From Psychroserpens algicola (GTDB lineage Bacteria > Bacteroidota > Bacteroidia > Flavobacteriales > Flavobacteriaceae), in assembly GCF_014526325.1 (NCBI RefSeq), contig NZ_JACNMJ010000009.1:124001-188000 (forward strand): a stretch of DNA of 64,000 bases, read 5' to 3'. Each line of letters starts with the position of its first letter. Position 1 is the stretch's first letter. The position numbers were made by a program, and so were the translations under genes. This document shows positions 6,336 through 17,515 of this stretch, one piece after another. The notes beneath the pieces were generated by a model that was not told the origin of the DNA, did not search any database, and saw nothing but the letters and a program-made list of their open reading frames with translations.

Positions 6336-6370
6336 AACGTCATTCTGAACTCGTTTCAGAATCACATTAT
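6336..6370 (+). repeat. Family A hairpin repeat, copy 1
   Basis: The copy reads roughly acgtcATTCTGAA-ctcgt-TTCAGAATcacatt, with a perfect 8-base stem at 6342-6349 and 6355-6362 and a five-base loop. It lies in the 311-base paaE-paaA gap, which otherwise holds only copy 2 and a GCTAAA-rich stretch before paaA. Confidence 0.85.
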
Positions 6371-7597: not shown

Positions 7598-7630
7598 ACG
7601 TCATACTGAACTTGTTTCAGTATCTCATTA
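7598..7630 (+). repeat. Family A hairpin repeat, copy 3 (compensated stem)
   Basis: The stem is ATACTGAA at 7603-7610 and TTCAGTAT at 7616-7623. Relative to copy 1 the third stem pair is changed on both sides (T-A to A-T), so pairing is kept. It occupies most of the paaA-paaB gap. Confidence 0.85.
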
Positions 7631-8795: not shown

Positions 8796-8828
8796 ACGTC
8801 ATTCTGAACGTGTTTCAGAATCTCATTT
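8796..8828 (+). repeat. Family A hairpin repeat, copy 5
   Basis: This reads acgtcATTCTGAA-cgtgt-TTCAGAATctcatt, a perfect 8-base stem, and fills most of the paaC-paaD gap up to the paaD start at 8835. Confidence 0.85.
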
Positions 8829-10428: not shown

Positions 10429-10460
10429 CGTCATCCTGAACTTGATTCAGGATTTCAATA
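10429..10460 (+). repeat. Family A hairpin repeat, copy 6 (compensated stem)
   Basis: The stem is ATCCTGAA with TTCAGGAT, a C-G pair where copy 1 has T-A and copy 3 has A-T. It lies between paaG and paaH. If translated it reads RHPELDSGF, which explains why an upstream in-frame extension of paaH is open. Confidence 0.85.
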
Positions 10461-10473
10461 TATAAGAAAACAC

Positions 10474-11649
10474 ATGAACGTAGGAATTATAGGAAGTGGA
10501 ACAATGGGAAGTGGCATCGCACAAGTGGCAGCCACTGCTGGTTGTCAAGTGAAATTATACGACACCAATCAAGCGGCTTTAGACAAGGCAAAAGCTTCAT
10601 TGGAAAACATTTTATCACGTTTAATTGAAAAAGGACGAATTGATAGTGATGAAAAAACGAGAATCCAAAGTAATATCAATTATGTAAACAGCTTAAAAGA
10701 TTTAAGTGATGCTAACTTAACCATCGAAGCCATTATTGAAAATCTAGACATCAAGCAAAAAGTCTTTTCTGAACTTGAAGGCTATGTGTCTGAAGATTGT
10801 ATCATCGCGTCAAACACATCCAGTTTGTCCATTGCATCTATTGCTGCATCACTGAAGAAGCCTGAGCGTTGTATCGGAATTCATTTTTTTAATCCAGCGC
10901 CTTTAATGAAATTAGTTGAGGTGATTCCTGCGATTCAAACATCTAAAGAGGTGCTACAAAAATCAATTGAGACCATTTCCGATTGGAAAAAAGTGGTAGC
11001 CGTAGCCAAAGACACACCTGGTTTTATTGTCAATAGAGTGGCGCGACCTTTTTACGGTGAAGCTTTAAGAATTTATGAAGAAGGAATTGCCGATTTTGAA
11101 ACTATTGATTATAGTTTAAAGACCTTAGGAGGTTTCAGAATGGGACCTTTTGAATTGATGGATTTTATCGGAAATGATGTGAATTATACCGTTACGGAAA
11201 CCGTGTTTACAGCCTTTTATTTCGATCCGAGATACAAGCCAGCATTCACTCAAAAACGTTTTGCTGAAGCTGGTTACTTAGGACGTAAATCTGGAAAAGG
11301 TTATTATGACTACGATGCCAATGGAAAGCTAATATCACGTCATGCTGAAGGTGTTTCAGAATCTCATAATACTGAGTTGGCAGAACAAATTTTCAACCGT
11401 GTTTTGGTGATGCTCATCAACGAAGCTGCCGATGCGTTGTTTTTGAATATCGCTTCCGCAGAAGATATAGATAATGCCATGACTAAAGGCGTCAATTATC
11501 CAAAAGGATTATTGGCTTGGGCAGATGAAAAAGGAATCGATTGGTGTGTCAATACCATGGATGAATTATATAACGACTATCACGAAGATCGTTACCGTTG
11601 TAGTCCGTTGTTACGTAAAATGCATAGAGAAAACAAAACATTTTTTTAA
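10474..11649 (+). CDS. paaH: 3-hydroxyadipyl-CoA dehydrogenase PaaH
   Basis: The product oxidises 3-hydroxyadipyl-CoA with NAD+. The 391 residues start at the ATG giving MNVGIIGSGTMGSGIAQ, the dinucleotide-binding loop; an in-frame extension back to 10423 is repeat sequence and is not used. The catalytic-region GIHFFNPAPLMKLVEV, PGFIVNRVARPFYGEAL and the domain GPFELMDFIGNDV follow. A second C-terminal dehydrogenase domain contains INEAADALFLNIAS. A family A repeat sits inside the coding region (11338-11368), encoding SRHAEGVSESHN in the linker between the two C-terminal domains. Confidence 0.94.
   Translation: MNVGIIGSGTMGSGIAQVAATAGCQVKLYDTNQAALDKAKASLENILSRLIEKGRIDSDEKTRIQSNINYVNSLKDLSDANLTIEAIIENLDIKQKVFSELEGYVSEDCIIASNTSSLSIASIAASLKKPERCIGIHFFNPAPLMKLVEVIPAIQTSKEVLQKSIETISDWKKVVAVAKDTPGFIVNRVARPFYGEALRIYEEGIADFETIDYSLKTLGGFRMGPFELMDFIGNDVNYTVTETVFTAFYFDPRYKPAFTQKRFAEAGYLGRKSGKGYYDYDANGKLISRHAEGVSESHNTELAEQIFNRVLVMLINEAADALFLNIASAEDIDNAMTKGVNYPKGLLAWADEKGIDWCVNTMDELYNDYHEDRYRCSPLLRKMHRENKTFF
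11338..11368 (+). repeat. Family A repeat, copy 7, inside paaH coding sequence
   Basis: The sequence cgtcATGCTGAA-ggtgt-TTCAGAATctcataa keeps the flanks and loop of the intergenic copies, but its stem has one mismatch. It is in frame and encodes SRHAEGVSESHN between two PaaH domains, so it looks like an intergenic repeat captured by, and adapted to, a coding sequence. Confidence 0.7.
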
Positions 11650-11660
11650 TAAAGCATAAG

Positions 11661-11690
11661 GTCATACTGAACGTGTTTCAGTATCAAATA
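11661..11690 (+). repeat. Family A hairpin repeat, copy 8
   Basis: This reads gtcATACTGAA-cgtgt-TTCAGTATcaaata, with the same compensated stem as copy 3. It lies between paaH and paaI. Confidence 0.83.
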
Positions 11691-12136: not shown

Positions 12137-12163
12137 ATTCCTGCGAAGGCAGGAATCTCTTAG
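12137..12163 (+). repeat. Family B hairpin (left end of inverted pair without a gene)
   Basis: The stem is ATTCCTGC (12137-12144) with GCAGGAAT (12149-12156), followed by CTCTTAG. The same pattern, a hairpin followed by ATCTCTT, begins the cassette around the GIY-YIG gene at 16381. An oppositely oriented partner is at 12353-12374. Confidence 0.75.
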
Positions 12164-12208
12164 TAGAAAGAAAATGAATTTTGACTAAGAAAAAAAACAT
12201 AACAAGTA

Positions 12209-12331
12209 GGTGCGTTAGGGATTGATGTGGCATCCTTTTTTACATCCGTTCGAGTGAAATTGCTTTTAGCAATTTTGAATTGAGAACAAGTAAAAAAGAT
12301 ATAACGGAAAGCCCGACCTTTAGGGAACGCT
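12209..12331 (-). repeat. Family D structured repeat, copy 2 (inverted orientation)
   Basis: Read on the minus strand this has the same ends as copies 1 and 3 (GCGTTcCC near AGGGTCG-like bases, and CAATCCCTAACGCA). A T-run and an A-run flank a central hairpin, AAATTGC/GCAATTT. It lies between the two inverted family B hairpins of the paaI-paaJ gap. Confidence 0.7.
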
Positions 12332-12352
12332 AAAAAGAATATTAATAATTAA

Positions 12353-12374
12353 AAGATACCTGCTTTCGCAGGCA
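12353..12374 (-). repeat. Family B hairpin (right end of inverted pair without a gene)
   Basis: AAAAGATA is followed by CCTGC-tttc-GCAGG. On the minus strand this is a CCTGC-gaaa-GCAGG hairpin followed by TATCTTTT, the mirror of the hairpin at 12137. It ends a few bases before the paaJ start at 12381. Confidence 0.7.
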
Positions 12375-12380
12375 TTTAAA

Positions 12381-13824: not shown

Positions 13825-16362
13825 ATGAAAAAAGTAGAACACTACGTCCAAGGAAACTGGACCACAGGAAACGAAGAGGGAACACCAATTCTAGATGCAA
13901 TCACTGGTGAAGCATTTACAAGTGTCGCTATCGAAGGATTAGATATTCCCGAAATACTAAACTACGGAAGAACCAAAGGAGGTGAGCAACTTCGTAAAAT
14001 GACCTTCCAGGAGAGAGGTAATATGCTCAAAAAGTTAGCATTGTATCTGACCAAACGTAAAGATGCATTTTATGACTTGAGTTACAGGACTGGAGCGACT
14101 AAAGTAGATAGCTGGATAGACATCGAAGGTGGTTTCGGAAACTTATTTGCCAATGCTTCACTAAGAAAATTATTTCCAAACCAACCCTTTCATGTCGAAG
14201 GGGATGCTATCGATTTATCTCGTGGCGGACGCTTTATGGCGCATCATATCATGGTGCCTAAAAAGGGTGTTGCCGTACATATTAATGCCTTCAACTTCCC
14301 GGTTTGGGGCATGTTAGAAAAATGTGCAGTCAACTGGATGGCAGGTGTTCCTGCAGTGGTATTACCAGCGCCTTCATCTTCTTATTTAGCGGAGGCTGTT
14401 GCTCGAACGATTATCGATTCAGGAATCTTACCTGAAGGTGCTTTGCAAATTATAAACGGAACGGTTAAAACAATTCTCGATACTGTAGAATCTCAAGATG
14501 TTGTGACCTTCACAGGTTCAGCACAAACGGGACGCTTATTAAAGGCGCATCCTAGACTCATTCAGGAATCTGTACCTTTTACTATGGAAGCTGATTCACT
14601 CAACGCTTCTATTTTAGGTGAAGATGCCGTTCCTGGTACACCAGAATTCGATTTATTTATCAAAGAAGTCCGTAAAGAAATGACTGTTAAAGCCGGACAA
14701 AAATGTACAGCGATACGCCGAATTATTGTCCCTGAAAACGTAGTTGAAGACGTACAAATAGCTCTAGGGAACGCTTTAGATAAAGTCACTATTGGAGATC
14801 CACGATTAAAAGAAGTCAGAATGGGATCGCTTGTGAGCCGTCAACAAGTTCAGGCGGTTAGAGATTCTGTAAACGATTTAGCAAAAGAAGCACAAATTGT
14901 ATATGGCGATTTAGACAACATTAAAACGATTGGTGCAGATGCTAAAAAGGGTGCGTTTATAAGTCCGATTTTATTAAGAGCTGATCATCCGTTCCAAAAT
15001 ACAGTGATTCATGAACGTGAGGCGTTCGGACCAGTAAGTACAATCATGCCTTATAAAAATTTAGACGAAGCGATTACCTTAGCGCAAATGGGTAAAGGGT
15101 CTTTGGTGTCTTCCATCGCAACAAACGATGATAAAATTGCTAAAGATTATGTGGTTAATGCTGCCAGTCATCATGGAAGAATTTTAGTATTGAACCGAGA
15201 AAGCGCTAAAGAAAGTACTGGTCATGGTTCACCATTACCATATTTAGTTCATGGTGGTCCAGGACGTGCTGGTGGAGGCGAAGAAATGGGAGGCATGCGA
15301 GGTATTAAGCATTATCTACAACGTACAGCCATTCAAGGGTCTCCAACAACCATTACCGAAATCACTGGGATTTACCAGCAAAATGCAAAGTATAAGGAAG
15401 CTGAACAGCATCCATTTAAATACCATTGGGAAGACATTCAGCCAGGTATGTCGCTAAAAACCCATAAGCGTACGATAACCGATACCGATATCATCAACTT
15501 TGCCAATGTCACCTGGGATCATTTTTATGCGCATACCGATATCACGTCTCTCGACGGAAGTATTTTTGAAAAAAGAACAGCGCATGGCTATTTCATTATT
15601 TCTGCAGCTGCAGGATTATTTGTCTACCCAAATAAAGGTCCAGTAGCCGCAAATTACGGTTTAGATAGTATTCGTTTTTTACGACCATTGTATCATAACG
15701 ACACCATTGATGTGCGACTCACCTGTAAGGAAAAAGTAGATCGTGATGTCGCTTCAGCCGAACATCCAAGCGGTATTGTAAAATGGCATGTCGAAGTGTT
15801 TGATGCCAACTTTGAGAATAGACCTGAAAGTCAAAAAAATGAAAAAGATAGTCCTTTAGTTGCTGTGGCTACTATTTTGACGATGGTTCAAAAAAAGCAA
15901 GAAACGTTTGTGGAGATGACTGAAACTAAAATTAATGAATGTCTGTCTAAGCTTTCTAAAGATACAAAACCAAAATGGGGAATCATGACAGCCCAACACA
16001 TGATCGAGCATTTAGAATACACATATAAAATTACGTCAGGTGAGATTCAGGATTTTGAAATCGCAACCCCTGAAAAGATATTAGAAAAGGTACATTATAG
16101 TCTGTATAACTATGATAAGTTTCCAAAAAATAGTCAGTTTCCACATTTGGAAAAAGACACCTTAGATGATTTAAAACATCCAGACTTAGATACAGCCATA
16201 GAAAAGTTTAAAGCACAAAGGGAAAAGTATATTCAATTTTTCAAAGAACACCCTGAAGCTAAACTCAAGAATTTAGTGTTCGGAGAATTAAATAAATACG
16301 AATCGTATTTGCTTGAAAGAAAACATCTGAACCATCATTTTGAACAATTCAATCTTTTATAA
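13825..16362 (+). CDS. paaZ: PaaZ, oxepin-CoA hydrolase / semialdehyde dehydrogenase, with extra C-terminal DinB/DUF1569-like domain
   Basis: This bifunctional enzyme opens the oxepin-CoA ring and oxidises the resulting aldehyde. Residues 1 to about 525 are an aldehyde dehydrogenase domain with Glu255 (TMEADSLN) and Cys294 (GQKCTAIRR), matching E. coli Glu256 and Cys295. Residues about 535-690 are a MaoC-type hydratase with Asp565 and His570 (WDHFYAHTD) and TAHGYF. E. coli PaaZ ends there (about 680 residues). This protein continues to 845 with a domain containing WGIMTAQHMIEHLEYT and a final KHLNHHFEQF, resembling DUF1569/DinB-like metal-binding helical bundles. Its role is unknown. A Met at residue 698 could be a fossil start of a once separate gene. 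Confidence 0.94.
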   Translation: MKKVEHYVQGNWTTGNEEGTPILDAITGEAFTSVAIEGLDIPEILNYGRTKGGEQLRKMTFQERGNMLKKLALYLTKRKDAFYDLSYRTGATKVDSWIDIEGGFGNLFANASLRKLFPNQPFHVEGDAIDLSRGGRFMAHHIMVPKKGVAVHINAFNFPVWGMLEKCAVNWMAGVPAVVLPAPSSSYLAEAVARTIIDSGILPEGALQIINGTVKTILDTVESQDVVTFTGSAQTGRLLKAHPRLIQESVPFTMEADSLNASILGEDAVPGTPEFDLFIKEVRKEMTVKAGQKCTAIRRIIVPENVVEDVQIALGNALDKVTIGDPRLKEVRMGSLVSRQQVQAVRDSVNDLAKEAQIVYGDLDNIKTIGADAKKGAFISPILLRADHPFQNTVIHEREAFGPVSTIMPYKNLDEAITLAQMGKGSLVSSIATNDDKIAKDYVVNAASHHGRILVLNRESAKESTGHGSPLPYLVHGGPGRAGGGEEMGGMRGIKHYLQRTAIQGSPTTITEITGIYQQNAKYKEAEQHPFKYHWEDIQPGMSLKTHKRTITDTDIINFANVTWDHFYAHTDITSLDGSIFEKRTAHGYFIISAAAGLFVYPNKGPVAANYGLDSIRFLRPLYHNDTIDVRLTCKEKVDRDVASAEHPSGIVKWHVEVFDANFENRPESQKNEKDSPLVAVATILTMVQKKQETFVEMTETKINECLSKLSKDTKPKWGIMTAQHMIEHLEYTYKITSGEIQDFEIATPEKILEKVHYSLYNYDKFPKNSQFPHLEKDTLDDLKHPDLDTAIEKFKAQREKYIQFFKEHPEAKLKNLVFGELNKYESYLLERKHLNHHFEQFNLL

Positions 16363-16380
16363 AAAATTGAATTGTTCAAA

Positions 16381-16410
16381 GTTCTCACGAAAGTGAGAAT
16401 CTCTTAAAAG
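16381..16410 (+). repeat. Family B hairpin, left end of the GIY-YIG cassette
   Basis: The stem is TTCTCAC (16382-16388), loop GAAA, stem GTGAGAA (16393-16399), then TCTCTTAAAAG. It is oriented with the single-stranded foot facing the GIY-YIG gene. Confidence 0.8.
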
Positions 16411-16421
16411 AAGTTCAAAAT

Positions 16422-16706
16422 ATGAAACATTACGTTTATATGATTACAAATAAAATAGATGGTGTTTTATATATAGGAGAAACAAAAAAGTTAAAGAAGA
16501 GAATATATCAACATAAAACTAAAGCACATCCTACTGCTTTTTCAGCACGATATAATTTAGATAAGTTAATTTTTTTTGAAGAGCATGAAACAATAGCTGA
16601 AGCTAAATTAAGGGAAAAGCAAATAAAGAAATGGAACAGAAGTTGGAAAATTGAATTGATAAAAAAAACAAATCCAGATTGGAAGGATTTGTACGAAGAT
16701 TTATAA
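16422..16706 (+). CDS. Small single-domain GIY-YIG nuclease
   Basis: The 94-residue protein is almost exactly one GIY-YIG domain. It has YVY at residues 4-6, YIG at 17-19, the catalytic Arg27 in KKRIYQHK and the metal-binding Glu65 in KLREKQIKKW. The ending NPDWKDLYEDL is typical of the short Bacteroidota members often mislabelled as excinuclease subunits. All catalytic positions appear intact. There is no link to phenylacetate metabolism. It interrupts the paa gene order and is flanked on both sides by inverted hairpins, suggesting it cuts at, or spreads with, those hairpins. Confidence 0.92.
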   Translation: MKHYVYMITNKIDGVLYIGETKKLKKRIYQHKTKAHPTAFSARYNLDKLIFFEEHETIAEAKLREKQIKKWNRSWKIELIKKTNPDWKDLYEDL

Positions 16707-16725
16707 AACTAAGTATAACATATTA

Positions 16726-16762
16726 AAAGAGATTCCCGCTTTCACGGGAACACGCAAGCGTG
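16726..16762 (-). repeat. Family B hairpin, right end of the GIY-YIG cassette
   Basis: AAAAGAGA is followed by TTCCCG (16733-16738), a loop, and CGGGAA (16745-16750). It is the inverted partner of the hairpin at 16381. It runs into a further small inverted repeat, CACGC-aa-GCGTG, that abuts the ATG of the next gene at 16763. Confidence 0.78.
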
Positions 16763-17515
16763 ATGACACAACCATACGTAACATTAGATATTAAAAACGA
16801 AGTAGGATACATCGAGTTTTTTCATCCTGCACACAACTCTTTGCCAGGAGATGTATTGGCGAAATTAGCAAATACAATTACAGAAGCCGGACAAAACGAC
16901 GCTATTAAAGTTATCGTTCTTAAAAGTGGAGGCGACAGAACATTTTGTGCAGGCGCAAGCTTTAAAGAACTCATCAGTATTAATGATGCAGCAACAGGAA
17001 AAGTCTTCTTTTCTGGATTTGCGAACGTCATCAATGCCATGCGTAAATGTCCGAAATTTATCATCGGGCGCATCCAGGGAAAAACTGTTGGAGGAGGAGT
17101 TGGATTAGCCGCATCAACCGATTACTGTATGGCGACAACATTTGCAGCCATCAAACTGAGTGAGTTAAATATTGGAATCGGACCATTTGTGGTCGGACCA
17201 GCAATTGAGCGCAAAATGGGATTAAGCGCCATGTCACAAATCGCTATCGATGCGAATTCGTTTTATCCAGCAGAATGGGCGAAACAAAAAGGACTCTATA
17301 CGCATGTTTATGAAAGCACTGAAGCCTTAGATGAGGCTGTAAAAACAACCGCTGAGCATTTGTGTACCTACAATACCGAAGCAATGCTGGAAATGAAAAA
17401 AGTCTTCTGGAAAGGCACTGATGATTGGGACGAACTGTTAGCCGAACGCGCGCAAACCAGCGGACGATTAGTATTGTCAGACTTTACTAAAGAGAAATTG
17501 AAAGGATTTAAATAA
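16763..17515 (+). CDS. Enoyl-CoA hydratase/isomerase family protein, probable PaaF-type 2,3-dehydroadipyl-CoA hydratase
   Basis: This 250-residue crotonase-fold protein has the first oxyanion loop FCAGASFKEL and the second QGKTVGGGVGLAAS. The pathway needs a second crotonase besides PaaG, to hydrate 2,3-dehydroadipyl-CoA, and this is the only candidate in the locus. It is divergent from E. coli PaaF, so the exact substrate is inferred. ATG at 16763 is preferred over the GTG three bases earlier. The start codon directly follows the right-end hairpin of the GIY-YIG cassette, so insertion may have replaced the native leader. Confidence 0.85.
   Translation: MTQPYVTLDIKNEVGYIEFFHPAHNSLPGDVLAKLANTITEAGQNDAIKVIVLKSGGDRTFCAGASFKELISINDAATGKVFFSGFANVINAMRKCPKFIIGRIQGKTVGGGVGLAASTDYCMATTFAAIKLSELNIGIGPFVVGPAIERKMGLSAMSQIAIDANSFYPAEWAKQKGLYTHVYESTEALDEAVKTTAEHLCTYNTEAMLEMKKVFWKGTDDWDELLAERAQTSGRLVLSDFTKEKLKGFK

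Follow-up and report, generated by a model that had tools for sequence, protein, structure and literature searches.

A minimal GIY-YIG nuclease gene between inverted CGTC-type REP hairpins: a candidate mobile unit

What is a small nuclease gene doing inside a phenylacetate operon, and do the hairpins at its two ends belong to it? The question is raised by a locus in the window, by which we mean the whole 64,000-nt stretch of Psychroserpens algicola DNA analysed here. The original prediction, made from the letters of the window, was that a GIY-YIG nuclease gene and its flanking hairpins form a mobile REP-like unit. This is supported by the hairpins found at other copies of the gene, by the controls and by the empty sites in relatives; the movement itself is something that we infer, and on these comparisons the unit is likely to be mobile.

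The open reading frame at 16422-16706 on the forward strand encodes a 94-aa protein that matches PF01541, the Pfam GIY-YIG family, with 66.7 bits against a cut-off of 22.6. GIY-YIG is its single Pfam domain, which bears out the claim of a 94-residue nuclease of this type inside the paa locus. Within the phenylacetate operon, the gene is preceded by paaZ (TIGR02278) and followed by a gene for an enoyl-CoA hydratase, for which paaG is our own working label. When 20 relatives are aligned, the columns without variation include Y6, Y17, G19, T21, R27, H31 and E65, and the AlphaFold model has a mean pLDDT of 96.5. In a fold comparison, the UPF0213 protein 1zg2 was the sole solved structure matched at E < 0.001 (E 1.9e-4), with Slx1 (6seh; E 0.05), the UvrC N-terminal domain and I-TevI as further matches of weak E-value. 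The nuclease thus has its fold in common with UPF0213 and, more weakly, Slx1-like proteins, and is also like UPF0213 in size; as far as we are aware, no association of these proteins with hairpins has been described. The protein matches the GIY-YIG domain and fold only, not the HUH motif and catalytic tyrosine that define the RAYTs of REPtrons (IS200/IS605). It has the catalytic domain of a GIY-YIG homing endonuclease (PF01541), and a Pfam search found no separate target-binding (NUMOD-type) region. The dN/dS of the nuclease was 0.02-0.23 in 14 of 16 pairs, the remaining two being one pair that is too close (0.71, few changes) and one that is saturated; the comparison indicates strong purifying selection.

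The two ends of the unit carry hairpins of the same type in opposite orientation, just as had been proposed. The left hairpin (TTCTCAC-GAAA-GTGAGAA, 16382-16399, forward strand) and the right hairpin (TTCCCGT-GAAA-GCGGGAA, 16750-16733, reverse strand) both have a GAAA loop and a foot, TCTCTT, that points inward to the gene (16400-16405 and 16732-16727, respectively). It had also been noted that the stems are unlike between the two ends and still pair, and both indeed fold better as DNA than most shuffles: z was -3.45 for the left hairpin alone (1 of 200 shuffles as good) and -3.19 for the right hairpin with its outer stem (2 of 200). The predicted extent, 16381-16750, covers both main hairpins and leaves out the outer parts of the unit. 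The outer left palindrome, the outer right stem with its tag and the recurrence of the hairpins at other copies had all been missed. On the right, a small outer stem, CACGC/GCGTG (5 bp), is followed by an outward tag, GTCAT, the two occupying 16751-16767 on the reverse strand; the tag overlaps the start of the next paa gene, ATGAC, to which it is reverse-complementary. On the left, a palindrome with arms of ~15 bp spans 16339-16380 (forward strand). Its 5' arm (16339-16353) is paaZ coding sequence, namely the last codons, the paaZ stop codon (16360-16362) lies within its loop, and its 3' arm (16366-16380) mirrors the coding arm. Folded together, the left hairpin and this palindrome reach z -8.3, with 0 of 200 shuffles as good. 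The window unit does not have the same tag on both hairpins, with GTCAT on the right and, on the left, ATCAT contributed by paaZ codons. By eye, some flank elements, for example that of locus L092 and the right end in the window, seem to have an extra internal stem, giving a branched shape and not a single hairpin.

The resemblance of these hairpins to REPs, which had been pointed out without naming a family, can be made specific for the wider family of the nuclease. A 2013 survey by Di Nocera, De Gregorio and Rocco (PMC3733652) described, in its passages on the CGTC REPs, palindromic repeats from five phyla with an unpaired CGTC or TGTC tag, a stem beginning with AT, a loop of 4-5 nt and a CCA tail, which occur mostly as head-to-head dimers with the tags outside. 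In the same passages a dedicated transposase is apparently absent. The hairpins flanking the wider nuclease family agree with this picture. Among 80 flank elements collected with GTC preset, the base before GTC was T in 42 and C in 33, the stem began with AT in 73, the foot was CCA in 44, and the commonest loops were GAAA (20), CTTGA (13) and GCAG (12). Among the places listed, REP neighbours within 150 bp of each other were head-to-head in 27 cases, head-to-tail in 3 and tail-to-tail in none, and this dimer orientation is the same as that of the hairpins around the nuclease gene. The nuclease-flanking hairpins thus have in common with CGTC REPs the GTC tag, the AT stem start, the loops of 4-5 nt, the CCA-like tail and the head-to-head arrangement, and differ in that they flank a nuclease gene, where the survey's text on the family (PMC3733652) gives it no dedicated transposase. 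The window copy itself departs from this canon at its left end, which lacks GTC.

If the hairpins belong to the gene, other short GIY-YIG copies should carry them in the same orientation. An alignment-based scan of genome contigs returned at least 547 relatives, and the best 80 of these, which were kept as loci, come from many bacterial phyla and one archaeal MAG record. There were 200 bp or more on both sides of the gene in 74 of the 80, and under 200 bp on one side in the other 6. A strict detector, which required GTC and a stem of 8 bp with 7 or more pairs formed, found tag-outward hairpins on both sides of 34 of the 74 loci, compared with 3 of 1105 random intervals of the same loci; the tag-inward counts were 6 of 74 and 3 of 1105. 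When all 64 trinucleotides were tried as the tag, GTC came first with 34, TCA, a shifted reading, had 9, and the median was 0. A wider detector (at least 5 perfect pairs plus a foot C) found tag-outward hairpins on both sides in 42/74 loci and 1/301 other ORFs (Fisher 4e-34), and on at least one side in 62/74 loci and 45/301 other ORFs of the same loci. Another GIY-YIG gene of the relatives, uvrC, was flanked in 0 of the 11 stretches with a usable ORF (out of 14). Such hairpins are therefore found at other copies in the same orientation and are far rarer around unrelated genes, and we regard the association of hairpin and nuclease as close to certain. The wider both-sides test fails in 32/74 loci, and 12/74 are without any tag-outward hairpin. 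By eye, many loci that escaped the strict detector have GTCATTGCGAGG..GCAATC or CTC-tagged hairpins, and a still wider detector, which had no control of its own, marked both sides in 66/129 loci and either side in 103/129. Tag-inward elements on either side were also commoner near the nuclease (36/74 loci against 46/301 control ORFs), so that many copies lie within REP clusters. In one locus (L034, genome G037), the GIY-YIG copy sits, by eye, among another repeat type (GGTGGCTGAGGCTCTCGAAGCC) and not among CGTC REPs.

The ends of the unit can be approached through copies at unlinked places. BLASTN among the nuclease loci gave 389 copy pairs with homology across the gene, from which 45 were listed and seven picked for measurement among those without other flank homology; the other listed pairs are at the same site, end inside the unit as weak alignments do, or were outside the measured set. 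In the seven unlinked pairs, 24 of the 28 homology ends lay within 13 bp of a tag. For example, the upstream homology of L061 and L087 ends at 59 and 52 bp, with tags at 56 and 49, and the downstream homology at 43 and 40 bp, with tags at 42 and 39. This comparison places the unit boundaries near the tags. Measured tag to tag, 58 units were 347-547 bp long (median 404).

The hairpins also appear to go with the enzyme in kind and in number. On a nuclease tree of the 91 of 129 loci whose hairpins fall clearly into one class, a tree with few columns and many weak forks, the three classes required 19 changes against 39.4 after shuffling (0 of 200 as low), and in Bacteroidota alone (54 rows) 14 against 25.9 (0 of 300 as low); by this comparison, the hairpin class follows the nuclease. 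Among 149 genomes of the class, the nuclease, called at E 1e-15, was present in 47 of the 61 that bear at least one of three REP patterns and in 29 of the 88 others (p 1.5e-7), and REP number and nuclease presence gave a Spearman coefficient of 0.53, both figures ignoring kinship. Most of the genome correlation is carried by pattern C. Pattern A alone was significant only at one copy or more (p 0.009; p 0.21 and 0.25 at 3 and 10 copies), and pattern B alone was not significant in the 149 genomes (p 0.33). When the 14 REP-positive genomes without the nuclease were rechecked at E 1e-4, 9 had some match and 5 had none; G095, a single-contig genome, has 419 type-C REPs and no nuclease match at that threshold.

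Whether relatives lack the unit at orthologous junctions had been proposed as a check, and some of them do, at three places. The paaZ-paaG junction is only a few bases long in eight genomes of the genus (G001, G004, G006, G010, G011, G015, G020 and G022) and likewise in G031, which belongs to a different genus. The nuclease unit occupies this junction in G000, G005, G014 and G016, and in G002, G008 and G012 there is, by eye, a head-to-head hairpin dimer without the gene. Between paaG and paaY, 14 of the 27 genomes shown have 2-7 bp, counting the stop codon; G019 has a nuclease unit there, and G002 and G016 have, by eye, gene-less dimers. After an lpdA-like gene, a unit is present in G004 and none in G006, which is 96% identical over a 650-bp neighbour query; a 20-bp exact direct repeat surrounds the G004 unit and has one near-copy in G006. 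Since G012 has a unit at the same place, both a gain in G004 and a loss in G006 would fit. A fixed target-site duplication was looked for in 58 units and not found: the lengths vary, where an insertion sequence of that kind would have a constant one, and only 8 of the 58 exceeded the shuffled 99% level, 3 of the 4 examined further being repeat clusters. Downstream of paaG in L171, L172 and L175 (G021, G013 and G032) there is a small gene near other short repeats; it looks like a member of what we take to be the "four helix bundle" or 23S rRNA intervening-sequence family and is perhaps another small mobile gene.

The subfamily to which the window copy belongs occurs in 14 of 397 family genomes, its own included (E 1e-34), and 3 of these 14 copies have an in-frame stop. 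Adding G005, G014, G016 and L040 gives 18 loci, which represent 12 or more genus codes, and paaZ, the nuclease and paaG were found in each. In 18/18 the unit lies 3' of the paaZ end, so that this subfamily is site-specific for the 3' end of paaZ, with the same insertion site in different hosts as in a homing endonuclease. The 3' arm that mirrors the last paaZ codons is likewise present in 18/18, and 210 of 216 cells of the mirrored arm are Watson-Crick, compared with 175 on average and at most 190 in 2000 among-species shuffles. This could mean that a single inherited structure has undergone compensatory change, or that the arm was copied when the unit inserted. Two species (G309 and G501) have nuclease genes identical over 282 bases, while identity is 88.0 and 87.7% in the genes on either side. 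Near-identity extends some 50 bp into paaZ and stops at ATGAC, and within this block the left hairpin has one substitution and, in G501, several extra repeat copies. The comparison points to a recent-looking exchange between two species at the same site, a homing-like signature. Much of the inheritance nevertheless seems vertical, since nuclease and paaG divergence correlate across all pairs (Spearman 0.70). The paaZ-site subfamily, whose site is empty in some species of a single genus and filled in others, is a natural test system. In L203, the left hairpin upstream of the nuclease is present in several near-tandem copies that are absent in the related species L202.

On balance, we favour a mobile element of ~350-550 bp, in which a UPF0213/Slx1-like GIY-YIG nuclease gene lies between inverted, outward-tagged CGTC REPs and its product cuts at the hairpin or tag and at the target, leading to homing-like copying. 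The nuclease would recognise and nick or cut its cognate hairpin or tag, and a target, and the break would be repaired from a unit-bearing copy, such that the unit is copied in and not cut and pasted. Recognition of a junction in a hairpin or cruciform would be in keeping with the similarity to Slx1. GIY-YIG enzymes hydrolyse DNA, and we know of none that rejoins DNA ends, which favours cutting plus repair from a unit-bearing copy. The irregular target duplications, the exchange-like identity and the one-site specificity also fit cut-and-repair better than a transposase with a fixed stagger. The parts of this proposal differ in strength: that the enzyme moves the REPs is fairly likely, and for homing-type copying of the unit the chances are about even. 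The unit would probably be the autonomous partner of the CGTC REPs, with single REPs and gene-less inverted dimers as its non-autonomous derivatives. Hairpin binding and cutting by the enzyme, movement driven by it and copying by repair are thus proposed steps, drawn from the comparisons above. A bolder version, which we consider doubtful, would make these units a class of their own: homing elements with hairpin ends, whose minimal GIY-YIG nuclease mobilises the CGTC REPs of bacteria from different phyla and perhaps also of archaea. In the paaZ subfamily, the hairpin arm that mirrors the host target codon by codon would then be a base-pairing guide to the insertion site.

Several other accounts of the locus need to be weighed. 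The gene could be a free-standing GIY-YIG homing endonuclease gene for which the hairpin or REP DNA is a landing site that is not itself moved, the REPs being spread by another enzyme. The site-specific subfamily and the exchange-like pattern of G309 and G501 would be expected from such a gene, as would the fact that, at the paaZ site, the tags coincide with stretches of the host's own genes (the CATCAT/CATCAC codons and the start ATGAC). However, in most of the unlinked pairs compared, both hairpins are part of the shared homology, hairpin class tracks the nuclease tree, and presence of the nuclease goes with higher REP numbers, which makes this account unlikely. The reverse arrangement, with REPs mobilised by some other transposase and the nuclease gene as cargo caught between two of them, is very unlikely in our estimate. 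REP-rich genomes without the nuclease, such as G095, speak for it, and Di Nocera et al. raised the possibility that a wide range of transposases acts on CGTC REPs, but only 1 of the 301 other ORFs of the same loci is bracketed, and in the survey's account of the family (PMC3733652) tyrosine transposase genes are not flanked by CGTC REPs and other transposases show a few fortuitous associations.

The hairpins might also serve the gene where it stands. A host enzyme domesticated for trimming or resolving the hairpins or cruciforms of REPs, with flanking hairpins that regulate its own gene or transcript, would agree with the strong purifying selection and with the closest folds, UPF0213 and, more weakly, the branched-DNA nuclease Slx1. 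Such a function is hard to reconcile with the patchy occurrence (14/397 family genomes), with units, dimers and empty states at the same junctions and with the exchange-like identity between two species, and we rate it as decidedly improbable. Finally, hairpins are common near gene ends, and those seen here could simply terminate transcription or stabilise mRNA next to a small gene, their pairing being a coincidence. We strongly disfavour this idea and rejected it on the control counts (1/301 ORFs flanked on both sides, against 42/74 nuclease loci): the elements have a common tag, first stem pairs, loops and foot, they are oriented tag-outward far above the controls, and the wider detector marked the upstream side of the gene as often as the downstream side (53/74 and 51/74 loci).

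Among known systems, the preferred mobile unit is closest in layout to the REPtrons, RAYT genes with GTAG REPs, which in the survey's outline of them (PMC3733652) likewise place one nuclease gene between hairpin repeats, and whose hairpins are likewise dispersed as singletons and as head-to-head dimers with the tags outside. REPtrons have an HUH-tyrosine transposase and a GTAG tag, whereas the present unit has a GIY-YIG domain and a GTC(AT) tag; GTC, not GTAG, topped the 64-trinucleotide scan. The unit is therefore REPtron-like by architecture and is not a REPtron by enzyme and tag. Free-standing GIY-YIG homing endonucleases of the T4 seg type have the catalytic domain in common with the nuclease, and the one-site insertion and exchange-like flank identity of the window subfamily are alike. 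In contrast to them, the nuclease here has 94 aa and no second domain, its unit has hairpin ends, and its wider family is found at many sites. The 2013 survey left open whether, and by which enzyme, the CGTC REPs are spread, and the short GIY-YIG nuclease is a concrete candidate that would be easy to express; its candidacy rests on being REP-flanked and on tracking both the sequence class and the number of the REPs. If true, this would be a second, independently evolved solution to the role that RAYTs are thought to have, and GIY-YIG enzymes would join those that drive mobile DNA with hairpin ends. A search of open-licence PubMed Central papers by title and start of abstract found, among the matches listed, no paper linking GIY-YIG with REPs, and the term GIY does not occur in the available text of PMC12306157; preprints and most subscription papers lay outside the search, so that another report of the link may exist.

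The window and its genome contain further REPs. Five CGTC-type REPs in one orientation lie directly 3' of successive paa-operon genes, all on the forward strand: canonical copies at 6339-6365 (of the CTGAA..TTCAG class), 7600-7626 and 8798-8824, and others at 10430-10456 and 11661-11687. A sixth, at 11339-11363, is inside an ORF. Ahead of the thiolase gene, two hairpins that point inward (12137-12159 and 12355-12375) were seen by eye with no listed ORF between them; this region, 12137-12375, is possibly a decayed or non-autonomous unit. The idea that the window hairpin is a high-copy repeat of its own genome was rejected: one consensus with two mismatches gave 5 matches. A different REP class is abundant there, with 33 copies (0 for the reversed control), of which 31 keep both variable stem pairs as Watson-Crick. 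This is the class found downstream of the second nuclease copy (L002), whose upstream hairpin looks, by eye, interrupted.
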